This document shows positions 48,229 through 53,434 of a DNA stretch of 64,000 nt, piece by piece. The DNA comes from Telmatospirillum sp. (GTDB lineage Bacteria > Pseudomonadota > Alphaproteobacteria > Rhodospirillales > Magnetospirillaceae). Every line of letters starts with the position of its first letter. Within the stretch, counting starts at the first letter, position 1. Where the stretch lies: the NCBI GenBank assembly GCA_009712185.1, contig WASQ01000143.1:71519-135518 (forward strand), in the 5' to 3' direction. The notes below the pieces were generated by a model. That model did no database searches. It was given only the letters and a program-made list of their open reading frames with translations, and was not told the origin of the DNA. A program made the translations under genes and the position numbers.

Positions 48229-48684
48229 ATGATCCTGATTACATATCGCACGGCCGTTCCGGCAGATATCCCGGCCTGTCTTGAAATCAAGGGACGGGTC
48301 CTGGAAAAGACATTTTCCGAAGCGGCCTTTCAAGAGCTGGCGGTCGCCACCGAGACATGGCGCCGACGGGTTCGTGACGACAGCTTCCCCGGCGTCGTCG
48401 CCTGTTCCGGCGGCGAGGTGATCGGATATTGTTTCGGTGAGAAAATGACCGGGGAAATCGTCGTCCTTTCGCTATTGCCGGAATTCGAGGGATTAGGCGT
48501 CGGCAGAACGCTTCTCAGGATGGTGGCGGACGCATTCCGGGACCGGGGATTTGGCAAACTGTTCTGTGGCTGCCCCACCGATCGGACAAGCCGCGCCTGG
48601 GGATTCTTCCGCTATCTCGGCTGGAAGCCGACGGGTAAGAGAAACGCCGCTGACAGGGACATCATGGAATTCCCCTTGCGCTGA
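48229..48684 (+). CDS. GNAT family N-acetyltransferase
   Basis: 151 residues. The acetyl-CoA loop is PEFEGLGVGRTLLRMVADAF near residue 85, a variant of the Q/RxxGxG/A motif, preceded by a beta strand GEIVVLSLLP. The N-terminus (YRTAVPADIPACLEIKGRV) and C-terminus (WGFFRYLGWKPTGK) fit the fold. The acceptor substrate cannot be told. The ATG is at 48229. It stands alone, divergent from the TPR gene. Confidence 0.85.
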   Translation: MILITYRTAVPADIPACLEIKGRVLEKTFSEAAFQELAVATETWRRRVRDDSFPGVVACSGGEVIGYCFGEKMTGEIVVLSLLPEFEGLGVGRTLLRMVADAFRDRGFGKLFCGCPTDRTSRAWGFFRYLGWKPTGKRNAADRDIMEFPLR

Positions 48685-48757
48685 CAGACCGGCCCGATGC
48701 CTGGTGGACGTCCACGGCACGCAACCGGAGATGTCCGGTCGCGTATAAATGGGGGGA

Positions 48758-48833
48758 TGGTGGGCGGTGAGGGACTCGAACCCCCGGCATTCTGCGTGTA
48801 AAGCAGACGCTCTACCAACTGAGCTAACCGCCC
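48758..48833 (-). tRNA. tRNA-Val (anticodon TAC)
   Basis: 76 nt including an encoded CCA. The seven-bp acceptor stem starts GGGCGGT, the anticodon loop is TTTACAC, and the T-loop is TTCGAGT. The discriminator is A, as usual for Val. Confidence 0.95.
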
Positions 48834-48946
48834 GCCGGCCGATTTCTAGGGGGTTTCACCGGCTTTGGCAAGATTGCTATTCATCCGCGCAACCACGCTG
48901 CCGGCCGGGCGGCTGCGGATAGCCTCTCCCCGACCGCGCCGGTCAC

Positions 48947-49939
48947 TCACTGTCCATGCCCATGACCGCCGAACAGGTAGGAAAACCGGAAATGGTCCAG
49001 CGTCAAAACGGTATCCCAGTGGCCGGTCGACAGGGCGACGCCATAAGCCAGCCCCAGCACGGCAAGGGCTCCGGCCGGCAACAGCCAGGGACGGACGGAT
49101 CCCCGTCCCGCCACGGTCGAAACGCCGAGGGCCCCGGGAAACTTGCAGGCTGATACGCAGTTCAGGCAGGTCGTGCACTCGAGCGATTGGACCGTATCCT
49201 TCTCGCTCACCCGAATTCCCATACCGCACGCCCGTGTGCAGGCGCCGCAGTTGTGGCAGGCGGAGGCATCGCGGCGAATACGGAACGGCGACAGAACCCC
49301 GACAACACCGAAGAAAGCGCCATAGGGGCAGAGCACCCGGCACCAGCCGTTGCGCAGGATCACCGACAACAGAACCAGCGCCCCGATGACCGCCATCCCC
49401 TTGGCCGACAGATGGACGAACATCATCAGCATCGCGCCATCCGCCCCCATGTTGTAGGGCTGGTGCAGGAACTGCTCGATCCCGATCAGCGGCATACTGA
49501 GAACCAGCCACAGGAAGGCGCCAAGCAATGGATATTTGGTGACCGGGGCCAGTCTCCGGGCCCAGACGGGCGAGCGCCACCGGGGCGGCAAACGCAGCAA
49601 ACGGTGCCGCACCACTTCCAGGGCGCGCGACAGGGTTCCCAGTGGACAGATCCAGGAGCAGAAGGACCGGCGGGCGATGATCGATCCGGCAATGAAGGCC
49701 AGAAGCAATGTCAGTCCGGCGGGATGAATCTCATCCCATTGTCCGGTCATCAACCAGCGTTTCAAGCCCAGAAGCGCTGATATCGGCAGGAAGGCCTCAA
49801 CCCCGGAAGGGCGGTCGACGGTGACGGGAAGACCGCCGGTCACCTGCCGGTAAAACTGGACAAAGTCGTACCCGATCCACAGCGTCAACACCACGAAGCC
49901 GGTTTGCACCCCCCAACGCAGGGGCCGATAATCCCGCAT
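48947..49939 (-). CDS. NapH-like membrane polyferredoxin
   Basis: 330 residues. Membrane helices are at about 10-28, 70-90, 140-165, 185-205 and 285-305. Two CxxxCP motifs face the membrane (FCSWICPLG near 92, WCRVLCPYG near 208), and two classical [4Fe-4S] motifs follow (CHNCGACTRACGMGI near 232, CTTCLNCVSAC near 257). This is the NapH/NosR/YccM family, which moves electrons from the quinone pool to periplasmic enzymes. No nap, nos or similar reductase lies nearby, so the partner is unknown. The ATG is at 49939. The C-terminal tail is Gly/His-rich (FGGHGHGQ). Confidence 0.85.
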   Translation of the reverse strand: MRDYRPLRWGVQTGFVVLTLWIGYDFVQFYRQVTGGLPVTVDRPSGVEAFLPISALLGLKRWLMTGQWDEIHPAGLTLLLAFIAGSIIARRSFCSWICPLGTLSRALEVVRHRLLRLPPRWRSPVWARRLAPVTKYPLLGAFLWLVLSMPLIGIEQFLHQPYNMGADGAMLMMFVHLSAKGMAVIGALVLLSVILRNGWCRVLCPYGAFFGVVGVLSPFRIRRDASACHNCGACTRACGMGIRVSEKDTVQSLECTTCLNCVSACKFPGALGVSTVAGRGSVRPWLLPAGALAVLGLAYGVALSTGHWDTVLTLDHFRFSYLFGGHGHGQ

Positions 49940-50160
49940 ACCCTACCCGATCGTTCCAGTGACAATAGCGGAACGCCCCCGGGAACAGACGGGGGCGTCC
50001 AAACGGACAATGGGGATATCACGGTTCACGATCGGGAGGGAACCCGCCATCGCGCCGAAATGTCGCAGGGACGACAGCAGCCAGCTAATGCACCACCACG
50101 CTTCAGCATACTACCGCCCTCACCGCCAAGACGATGAAGGGAATGAGTTGGGAACCGCAC

Positions 50161-50835
50161 TCAGACGGCTTTGATCTTCAAACGCTTTATCCGACGGATC
50201 AGGTTAAGAAAGCCTAGAATCAGAAATCCACTTCCCAACATCACTCCTGCCGACGGTTCAGGAACGGCCGCCCGAGAGATCGATATTCCACCAACGACCG
50301 GCCCCCAGGACGAACTGGAAGGATCAAGGCTTTCAAAATTCAGAACCGTCGATCCATTCGCCCAAAAGCGAAACTGTTGTAGAGCGAATTGCATGGATGA
50401 CGGCGTGTTATTCGCCGACTTGAAAGAAAATTCTTGGACTGCATTCCCCACCGACACCTTAAGGTGCTTTTCAGAGTGGTTATAGGGGTTTCCCGACAAA
50501 AAGAAAGAAAGCGTATACTCCCCGACGGGAAGAATTAGATTCTGTGCAATTCCTCCAGGCACCCAGCCATCGAGATCCACTGATCCACCACCGACCGGTG
50601 GAGCCTGCCAATAATTCTGTAGGACATCCACGCTGCCTTTCGTTACCGACCAAGGTCCGAAAGAAGATCCAGAATAAAATGTTGCCTGACCTTGACCGGA
50701 AAAATCACCATCCTTCACAAGGGACGCATTAGCCCGAAATGAAATCAATGGTAAAAGCATTATTATAGATATAAACCACGCGCCTTTCGAAAAATTATTC
50801 ACTTTTGTCACCATTTTTATCAGAAGGAAGATCAT
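50161..50835 (-). CDS. PEP-CTERM protein with choice-of-anchor C domain
   Basis: 224 residues from the ATG at 50835, or 217 from 50814; neither has a clear ribosome binding site. Signal peptide to about residue 38 (LISFRANA). The domain LVKDGDFSGQGQ to about residue 188, with GSVDVLQNYWQAPP, SVDLDGWVPGGIAQNL and YTLSFFLSGNPYN, matches choice-of-anchor C proteins. The sorting signal is VPEP (191-194), a helix GVMLGSGFLILGFLNLI and the basic end RRIKRLK. Exosortase removes this tail and exports the protein to the surface; none is in the window. The DNA is much more AT-rich than its surroundings, suggesting transfer. Confidence 0.85.
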   Translation of the reverse strand: MIFLLIKMVTKVNNFSKGAWFISIIMLLPLISFRANASLVKDGDFSGQGQATFYSGSSFGPWSVTKGSVDVLQNYWQAPPVGGGSVDLDGWVPGGIAQNLILPVGEYTLSFFLSGNPYNHSEKHLKVSVGNAVQEFSFKSANNTPSSMQFALQQFRFWANGSTVLNFESLDPSSSSWGPVVGGISISRAAVPEPSAGVMLGSGFLILGFLNLIRRIKRLKIKAV

Positions 50836-51113
50836 TCAAAAATTTATACATAATAAAAAATCTGTAAAACGATTCTGAATACGTATTTACAAACAATTTT
50901 CAAAATTGTCAACAAATAAAATTGAGTTTTTAAAAAATTTTATTTAAATTAAATGTTTTTATGAAATAAATTTTTATTTTTAATTCGCATATATTATCGA
51001 TTTCAACGTACAATTTATTTTAAGTTTTAATTTAAAAGACGAAAAAGAAACTGATTCCAGCGGCCATAACGGATCCCAAATCAGATCTAATTCAGGCAGA
51101 ATTAATGCCAATG

Positions 51114-51136
51114 GGCGATGAGCCATCCTCATCGCC
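51114..51136 (-). terminator. Nine-bp hairpin downstream of the caspase-like gene
   Basis: Perfect arms GGCGATGAG and CTCATCGCC enclose CCATC. It lies about 185 nt past the caspase-gene stop in its direction of transcription. Only a weak T-rich run (CATTAATTCT) follows. Confidence 0.4.
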
Positions 51137-51149
51137 GATCGGAATAACA

Positions 51150-51163
51150 TTGATTTGCATCAA
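51150..51163. promoter_or_regulatory. Perfect FNR/FixK-type site
   Basis: TTGATTTGCATCAA matches the consensus TTGAT-N4-ATCAA at all ten defined bases. It is 315 nt upstream of the PEP-CTERM gene and inside the gap after the caspase gene. I found no good -10 box at the expected distance on either side, so the target is unclear. Confidence 0.5.
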
Positions 51164-51319
51164 TGCCCGCGACCTGGACGGATGGACGGCAGAAGCTTTT
51201 GAGAACAGGGGCCGCCGGGACTGCGGGGGAAAAGCGCGGCTCCGGCGGCCAGAGCCCCCCTCATTCGATCAGTTGGATCGACGGGCGCCCCCACCGTCCG
51301 GGGCGCCCGGCGCCAACTG

Positions 51320-53077
51320 TCAGTCGCCGGCCCCGGTCAGCGAGGTCAATGCGGTGCGGGCCTTGGCGTTGCCCTGTTCCGCCGCCTTCCGATACCAGGA
51401 TATGGCGGCGCGGGAATCGGCTGCGACCCCCAGACCGAACTGATAGCACCATCCCAGGCTGTACTGGGCGCCCGCGTCGCCTTGTGCCGCCGCCTTGGCG
51501 AACCCCCGCGCCGCCTCGCCCGGGGCCCGGGCCACGCCGGCCCCTTCCGCATAGGCCTCGCCCAAACGCGTCTGCGCCAGCGCCACTCCCTGGTCGGCGG
51601 CTTTCCGCAACCAGCGGACAGCCTCGGCATCATCGCGGGGAACGCCCCGGCCGGCGGCATAGGCCAGCCCCAGGGCCGCCTGGGCCTGGGCCACGCCCTG
51701 GTCGGCGGCCTTGCGATACCAGCGCAACGCCTCGCCCTCGTTGCGGGCGAGACCGCGCCCCTGATCGAGATGCGCCGCCAGCGCCACCTGGGAGGCGGCG
51801 ACGCCCTGATCGGCCGCCTTGCGATACCAGGACACGGCGGCCTGGGGATCGGCCGCGACGCCGCGCCCCGCATCGAGACAGGCGGCAAACTCCGCTTCCG
51901 CGGGAACATACCCCTGCTCCGCCGAGCGCCGGAAGGCCGCCGCGGCCTCCTCCTGCCGGTTTGCGACCGACAGGGCCCGGCCCAGCAGATAATCCGCGCG
52001 GCGATGGCCCTGAAGCGCCTTGCAGGCCAGAATGGCACGCCGGCTGTCGATGGCGGCGGGATCAACGCCGTCGCCAAGGCGATCCGGATCGTTGGGGGCG
52101 GCGGCCAGACGGTCGCAGTCCGACAGCAGTTTACGTTTTGCCAGTTCGGCGAATTTGCCGTCCGGGAACTTGGCGAGATAGGCCTGATAATCGTCGGAAG
52201 CGCTGCTGGATTTGATGCTGTCCCAGAAGGCCAGATCAGGATCGGCGGGCGGAGCCGCCTCCGGCTCTCCGGCAAAGAAGAAACGCCCTTCGATCGGCGA
52301 GGCGGACAGCCACGGTTGCTGCTGCCCCGCAGTGGCCTGCTTGACCTCCAGCCCGACCTCGTTGAACACGCCGAACAGATCGAGACCCGGCTTGTGCAGC
52401 GCCTGGGCCAGGGCCGCCGTATAGGGGCTGTTGCTGCCCGTCCCGTCGGCCGCCACATTGTCGGGCTGCGTCGCGTAGCCGATCACCGTCCCTGCCGGGG
52501 CATTGACCTGCCCGAGACCCGAGGACATCGCGCGCGTCCCCTTCTTCGCGAAGGGATTGTTACGGCAGGCATCGAGAATGACGATATTCAGCCTGTTTCC
52601 CGCATGGGTCATTTCATCGAGGACATAGCCGACGTCCATCAGTTCGTATTTCACGTCGACATCGCTCGCGATGTTGGCCGTCACCGGAATCAGATAGTTG
52701 CTTCCGTTCACCTGGATGCCATGGCCGGAATAGTAGAAAAGCCCGACCGCCCCGCCCTGCAACTGGCGGCCGAACTCACGGATCGCCTTTTCCATTGCCG
52801 GCTTGTCGGCATCGATCAGCGGCCCGCCGCCGACCAGCGTGAATCCGAGCTGGGACAGGGTCTCCGCGATCAAGGTCGCGTCATGGGGCGGGTTGGGCAG
52901 TGGCGCCGCGTTCTGATAAGCCCCGTTGCCGATCACCAACGCGACGCGGTGCTCCGCCGGGGCGGCCTCGTCAGCCAGAAGCGGCCGGGCCAGGGTCAGA
53001 CTGCACAGCAGCAGACCACAGGCCACCATTCCCGCCCGGAATGCAACCCGGGTCATCCACACCTTAACAGACAGCAT
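51320..53077 (-). CDS. Caspase-like (peptidase C14) protein with Sel1 repeats
   Basis: 585 residues from the ATG at 53077; ATG at 53056 is an alternative. A signal peptide ends near LARPLLADEA. The caspase-like domain (about 42-270) begins HRVALVIGNGAY and has the catalytic dyad His119 (YYSGHGIQ) and Cys171 (ILDACRNNPF). A linker with AFWDSIKSSSASDDYQAYL follows, and then five to six Sel1 repeats (about 360-580), each with the WYRKAADQG-type end. Such exported orthocaspase-like proteins are common in alphaproteobacteria; targets are mostly unknown. The repeats suggest a binding platform. It stands alone. Confidence 0.9.
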   Translation of the reverse strand: MLSVKVWMTRVAFRAGMVACGLLLCSLTLARPLLADEAAPAEHRVALVIGNGAYQNAAPLPNPPHDATLIAETLSQLGFTLVGGGPLIDADKPAMEKAIREFGRQLQGGAVGLFYYSGHGIQVNGSNYLIPVTANIASDVDVKYELMDVGYVLDEMTHAGNRLNIVILDACRNNPFAKKGTRAMSSGLGQVNAPAGTVIGYATQPDNVAADGTGSNSPYTAALAQALHKPGLDLFGVFNEVGLEVKQATAGQQQPWLSASPIEGRFFFAGEPEAAPPADPDLAFWDSIKSSSASDDYQAYLAKFPDGKFAELAKRKLLSDCDRLAAAPNDPDRLGDGVDPAAIDSRRAILACKALQGHRRADYLLGRALSVANRQEEAAAAFRRSAEQGYVPAEAEFAACLDAGRGVAADPQAAVSWYRKAADQGVAASQVALAAHLDQGRGLARNEGEALRWYRKAADQGVAQAQAALGLAYAAGRGVPRDDAEAVRWLRKAADQGVALAQTRLGEAYAEGAGVARAPGEAARGFAKAAAQGDAGAQYSLGWCYQFGLGVAADSRAAISWYRKAAEQGNAKARTALTSLTGAGD

Positions 53078-53434
53078 CGCGAGGTCATCCGTTCCCGTTG
53101 AAAGTCCCCTGTCGGCCGCAGCGCCGACCGGACAGGGCACCCGACCGGCGGTTTGAAAAAAAGATCGATTTCGTCATGCCTGACATGCGAATCGGATGAT
53201 GGCTCCGTCCTCATGCCGATGACCGCCGCCGACACCTAGGGAAAGGCCGCATCCCCGCGTCCGCCGGCACGATCGGAACGGCGAAACCGGCGGGTGACCG
53301 GCCGGACCTTCCGGCGATGGCGCGCTGTCCCCTTGCCTCCCTCCGGCAACGGGCGCAAAAGAGCAATCCAGGCGCGACAAGAGCGCGGGCGCTTCCCGGC
53401 CGGCGGCGCACAAACCCGAAGAGAGGTCCCTTTC
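53078..53434. other. Non-coding region between divergent genes
   Basis: 357 nt between the caspase-like gene (leftward) and the zinc-ribbon gene (rightward). I see one degenerate REP-like stretch (CCGCATCCCCGCGTCCGCCG, near 53247-53266) and no believable gene; frames that are open here have Arg/Pro-rich products typical of shadow frames. Confidence 0.5.

Follow-up and report, generated by a model that had tools for sequence, protein, structure and literature searches.

A probably acquired PEP-CTERM surface protein gene in an AT-rich islet of a Telmatospirillum genome

The locus and its base composition

The window (the whole stretch of 64,000 nt analysed here, from the genome of Telmatospirillum sp., referred to as G000) contains a single gene for a PEP-CTERM surface protein, located between a gene for a caspase-Sel1 repeat protein and one for a NapH-like membrane protein. 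The features of the locus are the following.

48758-48833, minus strand: tRNA-Val (tac), lying 1.1 kb beyond the downstream boundary of 49940-51319
48947-49939, minus strand: NapH-like polyferredoxin membrane protein, the downstream flank (matches to NapH models, below their cut-offs)
49940-51319, no strand: interval missing at the same site in three congeners, a putative insertion (flank comparison)
50161-50835, minus strand: gene for a PEP-CTERM surface protein with a choice-of-anchor-C-like domain (list of open reading frames, with TIGR04362 and TIGR02595 matches)
50836-51060, minus strand: AT-rich leader of the gene (17% GC), holding three weak sigma-70-like sites (composition and site count)
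51095-51110, minus strand: weak sigma-54-like sequence TGGCATTAATTCTGCC, 280 nt before the ATG at 50814
51150-51163, no strand: FNR-type box TTGATTTGCATCAA (exact match)
51279-51312, no strand: GC-rich hairpin directly after the caspase stop codon, without a T-tract and not scored as a terminator
51320-53140, minus strand: caspase (Peptidase_C14)-Sel1 repeat protein, the upstream flank (profile match)

The open reading frame at 50161-50835 is intact and encodes a product of 224 aa, or of 217 aa if the ATG at 50814 is taken as the start; by eye, a clear ribosome-binding site is not apparent. The caspase-like protein and the FNR site that the first-pass annotation had placed next to the gene are both there, the former with a caspase domain (PF00656, 131.5 bits) followed by Sel1 repeats and the latter as an exact box. 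A search for structured RNA in 48600-51400 returned, at E<=1, only the tRNA.

The gene and the roughly 220 nt upstream of it had also been described as differing in composition from GC-rich surroundings, and this is borne out: GC content is 62.5% in the window, 47.1% in the coding sequence and 17.3% in the 225 nt that precede it (50836-51060), which form the most AT-rich stretch of the whole window. When the window was divided into 235-nt bins at 25-nt steps, the 16 bins of lowest GC all started at 50601-50976 (minimum 0.174), and the edges of the interval 49940-51319 are GC-rich. A further strongly AT-rich leader, with GC falling to 0.24, was seen at L021:5051-5400 within the 85 kb checked; the gene next to it is not one of the PEP-CTERM set.

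The encoded protein and the resident exosortase system

The predicted protein begins with a putative signal peptide (MVTKVNNFSKGAWFISIIMLLPLISFRANA-S, read by eye) and ends with a PEP-CTERM tail. Its score against TIGR02595 was 17.1 bits (cut-off 16), or 19.7 bits in the genome search; against the Pfam PEP-CTERM model PF07589 it reached 15.6 bits, below the cut-off of 20.7. The C-terminus combines a membrane helix, at residues 202-221 of the structure model (pLDDT 55-75), with a basic tail, RRIKRLKIKAV.

Between these ends lies a domain that matches the choice-of-anchor C model TIGR04362 over nearly its full length (profile positions 16-155 of 157; E 3.5e-26), and because its score of 92.3 bits is under the curated cut-off of 120 we call the domain choice-of-anchor-C-like only. 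DUF642 (PF04862) is matched by eight of the nine rows of the homologue alignment; the window protein differs in being the sole row with no match, at E<=0.1. Homologues of the domain show no more than about 40% identity and come from Alphaproteobacteria, Burkholderiales, Crocosphaera, Verrucomicrobia, WWE3 and Melainabacteria, and Streptomyces plasmids also hold homologues, again at most about 40% identical. In the Tropicimonas homologue a VPLP-type tail, read by eye, takes the place of PEP-CTERM, in line with the choice-of-anchor name.

An AlphaFold2 model computed from nine sequences (mean pLDDT 78.1, pTM 0.68, with values around or over 90 in most of the core) predicts a jelly roll followed by the C-terminal helix. 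The top Foldseek match was a hyaluronan-binding module (E 5.6e-7), with TM-scores by query length of 0.28-0.47 among the 50 matches listed. After realignment the best match was CBM4-2 (2y64_A; Z 15.4, rmsd 2.2, 139 residues aligned), followed by CBM61 (Z 15.1, 132 aligned). The predicted fold is thus that of a carbohydrate-binding-module jelly roll, alike to the solved CBM4, CBM61 and CBM16 structures at Z 13-15 over 128-139 aligned residues, yet sequence identity to them is 12-18%, and fold alone is no proof of sugar binding because cyclases, meprins and an insecticidal crystal protein domain in the same list share it at Z about 13. We infer from the model that this domain may bind sugar.

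Proteins with such tails need an exosortase, and one was found elsewhere in the genome, as the first-pass annotation had expected: there is one match (PF09721, E 4.9e-53), and it is of the XrtA type (TIGR03109, 240.3 bits, cut-off 208). Beside it lie the XrtA amidotransferase (TIGR03108, 981 bits, cut-off 816.9) and a glycosyltransferase (TIGR03087, 520.6 bits, cut-off 316.65), and the same contig carries PrsT, PrsR and PrsK in tandem and a TIGR03013 glycosyltransferase, each over its cut-off. The XrtA-associated glycosyltransferases of this contig bear on the exopolysaccharide link drawn in the first-pass annotation; for the window protein itself a part in biofilm formation would be a putative one. 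The genome thereby shares the tail, the exosortase type and the regulators of the PEP-CTERM/EpsH (XrtA) system with PrsK-PrsR-PrsT described by Haft et al. (2006; PMC1569441). At L108:7610-18764 (contig C120 of G000), the PrsT-PrsR-PrsK genes and the TIGR03013 gene adjoin an open reading frame over the cut-off for an NHLP bacteriocin export ABC transporter.

In all, 13 PEP-CTERM matches over the cut-off were found in the genome, each read as having a hydrophobic start and a tail at its end (L017-L019, below the cut-off, were dropped). The description of the window protein as a lone PEP-CTERM protein consequently holds for its neighbourhood and not for the genome, and the possibility that it is an orphan tail in a genome without an exosortase is ruled out by the PF09721 match together with the 13 proteins. 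In the sample of relatives, an exosortase was matched in 14 of 61 genomes (own included) at E<=0.001, and in 13 of 61 over the cut-off. Among the four congeners (G001 to G004) G001 alone has one, along with 20 PEP-CTERM matches, and it gives no match to the window gene. PEP-CTERM matches over the cut-off also occur in two congeners lacking an exosortase match, one in G004 and two in G002.

Occupied and empty sites in congeners

Comparison of the flanks places the gene within a sharply bounded difference between genomes. From the stop codon of the caspase-Sel1 gene to the start codon of the NapH-like gene there are 1380 nt in the window and 3, 1 and 2 nt in G001, G002 and G004, so that the site is empty in all three congeners having both flanking genes; in the small congener G003 (0.9 Mb) neither flank was matched at the limits used. 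None of the four congeners yielded a match to the window gene itself. It was matched in two of the 61 genomes of the relatives sample (own included) at E<=0.01, the second match being weak and covering residues 129-210, and at E<=1e-4 in five of the 385 genomes of the class sample (again counting its own), the matches outside its own genome not exceeding 38% identity. The gene is therefore not a family-wide occupant of this site, and the horizontal gain proposed by the first-pass annotation is supported by the three empty sites and by the missing gene matches. What that annotation had drawn as the islet, the AT-rich gene and its leader, does stand out by composition; the stretch absent from the congeners is larger and spans 49940-51319.

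Neither a target duplication nor terminal (inverted) repeats were recognised at the ends of this interval, and it contains no mobility genes. Phage origin was considered and set aside, there being no match in phage records or, with an alignment (A1) as query, in viral_contigs. Carriage on a plasmid was likewise considered, but the 19 plasmid records found (17 of them Streptomyces) hold domains at most about 40% identical, and no donor emerged from them. A single-protein query of genome_contigs gave no close relatives, and alignment A1 gave eight distant loci.

The direction of the event has to be read from the occupied and empty sites, which make gain more likely. A protein tree of Lon (13 rows) left open the order of G000, G001 and the outgroups; codon trees of Lon (eight rows) grouped G000 with G001 at ultrafast bootstrap values of 66 and 77 (SH-aLRT 45.7 in the first). 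Gain is the likelier direction, and the weak placement of G000 with G001 in the Lon trees leaves some room for loss in the others. The gene would then be ancestral and have been deleted in the line or lines leading to G001, G002 and G004. Such a history would draw on this weakly supported position and on the lack of an exosortase match in three of the four congeners, where substrates could disappear, but G001 has an exosortase and 20 PEP-CTERM matches without the window gene, the nearest homologues in the searches belong to scattered phyla and do not exceed about 40% identity, and AT-rich composition and the same pattern at three sites (see below) fit it poorly. We regard ancestral loss as quite improbable.

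The same pattern recurs in the PEP-CTERM set of the genome, which falls into two composition classes. Eight of the 13 genes are GC-rich (coding GC 0.60-0.64, GC3 0.71-0.84) and five are AT-rich (L006, L011, L013, L014, which is the window gene, and L016; coding GC 0.43-0.50, GC3 0.36-0.47, the window gene itself having a GC3 of 0.47). Among 36 PEP-CTERM genes from seven related genomes, retained from 42 matches in eight, none has a coding GC below 0.52. L011 lies between genes for an SSF symporter and a TonB-like protein (label by eye). In G001, G002 and G004 these two genes are oriented tail to tail, and 4, 235 and 24 nt, respectively, separate their matched ends. L013 and an accompanying GNAT gene are flanked by genes for a FliL-like protein (label by eye) and a pyrophosphatase, which are separated by 2165 nt here and by <260 nt in G001 and G004; in G002 the contig ends too soon. 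Searches with pieces of the L006 and L016 flanks gave no match or matches of 26-30% in the three congeners, and these sites are uninformative because the pieces lack a convincing orthologue there. Thus all three testable islets of the five (the window gene, L011 and L013) occupy positions that are vacant in the congeners compared.

A DNA element common to the five islets was sought and rejected, since the matches were short, the best of them (23 nt, E 5e-4, between the window islet and L006) being unconvincing in AT-rich sequence. The L013 and L016 proteins share homology (L094:3372-4109 and L095:8629-9303; 34% identity over 166 residues), and neither was matched by a PEP-CTERM protein taken from the related genomes. 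On the contig of islet L006 there are also an AT-rich (GC 0.41) secreted-looking open reading frame, L092:3456-3890, and one at 803-1744 of L092 that by eye resembles an IS1595-type transposase. When mature parts were compared with the PEP-CTERM proteins of related genomes (with L072, L096, L099, L100 and L103 omitted), homologues were found for two of the eight GC-rich and none of the five AT-rich genes; since just two of eight have one, the GC-rich genes turn over too.

It might be argued that the gene is native and its AT-richness functional, as when promoter DNA is AT-rich, bent or silenced, with no foreign trace in it. The leader is indeed far more AT-rich (17% GC) than the coding sequence (47%), several PEP-CTERM genes, GC-rich ones included, have AT-rich 50-nt bins upstream, and one unrelated AT-rich leader occurs within the 85 kb checked. 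Yet a promoter effect does not extend easily to the coding sequence, itself AT-rich by its third codon positions when set against the GC-rich class, nor to a site that is empty in three congeners, and we hold this explanation to be very unlikely.

Promoters, expression and interpretation

In the account of Haft et al. (2006; PMC1569441), the PrsR/sigma-54 regulon is marked by a -24/-12 promoter with a TTTACA-type motif 32-92 nt upstream of it. The window gene resembles more than 65% of the PEP-CTERM genes described there in standing as a single gene behind a large intergenic region, and it differs in having no such motif pair upstream: a TTTACA is present at -54, with no sigma-54 promoter after it. 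Absence of the pair is common in itself, because in that survey it precedes 99 of 167 proteobacterial PEP-CTERM genes (mean spacer 62.8 nt).

Upstream sequences were scored for -24/-12 promoters with weights that we set ourselves on the consensus TGGCACGN4TTGCW, omitting six of the 55 PEP-CTERM loci (L072, L096, L099, L100 and L103, stubs with no plausible start, and L054, the sole G004 row, with an atypical start). A score of at least 19.2 was reached before 25 of 44 GC-rich and none of five AT-rich genes (Fisher p 0.022; background, none of 426 300-nt bins of the window), a threshold of 18.2 gave 30 of 44 against none of five (p 0.006), and within the own genome alone the counts at 19.2 were five of eight against none of five (p 0.075); these p values are only a guide, because the genes are partly related by descent, their starts were picked by a script and the thresholds were chosen after the scores had been seen. 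Four of the own GC-rich genes (L004, L007, L009 and L012) have TTTACA or CTTACA 52-64 nt before the sigma-54 promoter, in agreement with the motif pair of Haft et al. (2006), and three of the eight are likewise without such a promoter. The sigma-54-like sequence TGGCATTAATTCTGCC upstream of the window gene scores 18.0, a value that 3.5% of background 300-nt bins reach, and there is no TTTACA or CTTACA in the 110 nt before it; it is probably due to chance.

Other promoter-like sites were counted in 49800-51450 on both strands. Seven sigma-70-like sites were found, against 1.5 +/- 1.3 in shuffled sequences, and three of the seven lie in 50836-51060 on the minus strand. A strong sigma-70 promoter for the gene was nonetheless rejected as a candidate, as Markov resamples of this AT-rich sequence do as well as the best upstream match (9/12; P 0.885); a 10/12 match falls within the coding sequence. 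The FNR-type box TTGATTTGCATCAA is the sole exact match in the window (expected 0.04; four of 100 shuffles have one) and sits within the inserted interval, and no such box, with up to one mismatch, was found in the other four AT-rich islets.

A comparison can be drawn with PepA of Aquincola tertiaricarbonis, a PEP-CTERM floc protein whose transcription depends on RpoN1 and which reportedly has a role in keeping exopolysaccharide bound (PMC9850573). Both are small PEP-CTERM proteins, and PepA is thought in that report to act in extracellular polymers (PMC9850573). The window gene differs in lacking a promoter of the RpoN1-dependent kind, and its product scores 16.4 bits against the floc_PepA model, whose cut-off is 80.

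These promoter results also bear on whether the gene, once gained, is anything more than a decaying and silent passenger, its PEP-CTERM tail unprocessed and its product no working substrate. The missing PrsR/sigma-54 promoter, the PF07589 score under its cut-off and the lack, by eye, of a clear ribosome-binding site would all suit a passenger, while an intact reading frame, a signal peptide (by eye), a conserved domain, a PEP tail over the NCBIfam cut-off and an FNR-type box upstream argue for a gene in use. A passenger of this kind seems to us unlikely.

Our working hypothesis, which we consider probable as a whole, is that the window gene was acquired and encodes an accessory surface protein, which the resident XrtA system anchors and whose expression lies outside the PrsR/sigma-54 regulon. 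On this view, 1.38 kb of DNA with one PEP-CTERM gene would have entered this lineage between the caspase-Sel1 stop codon and the NapH-like start codon. Judging from family knowledge and the model, the product would be exported by way of its signal peptide, its PEP motif, membrane helix and basic tail would be recognised by XrtA, and the predicted jelly roll, resembling carbohydrate-binding modules, would then sit in the exopolysaccharide layer. Five of the eight GC-rich genes have a recognisable PrsR/sigma-54 promoter and this gene has none, so that its transcription from the AT-rich leader would likely depend on another sigma factor, perhaps with FNR.

It is tempting to extend this acquisition hypothesis to the genome as a whole. 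Tentatively, and with considerable doubt, we suggest that XrtA has two tiers of substrates: GC-rich genes, mostly run by PrsK-PrsR-sigma-54, and single AT-rich genes with promoters of their own that were inserted singly into intergenic sites, XrtA being a general socket for circulating surface proteins. The repeated pattern could be accounted for by a putative carrier, or by an insertion route, that delivers PEP-CTERM genes singly and neatly into the gap between two neighbours. No earlier report of such a two-tier pattern was found in a search of open-licence papers. The comparison provides pairs of occupied and empty sites, at the sequence level, for single acquired proteins with a sorting tag, and one genome offers a testable contrast between sigma-54-driven exosortase substrates and AT-rich ones with divergent promoters. 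If the pattern is general, a resident sorting enzyme may let new surface proteins be used on arrival.
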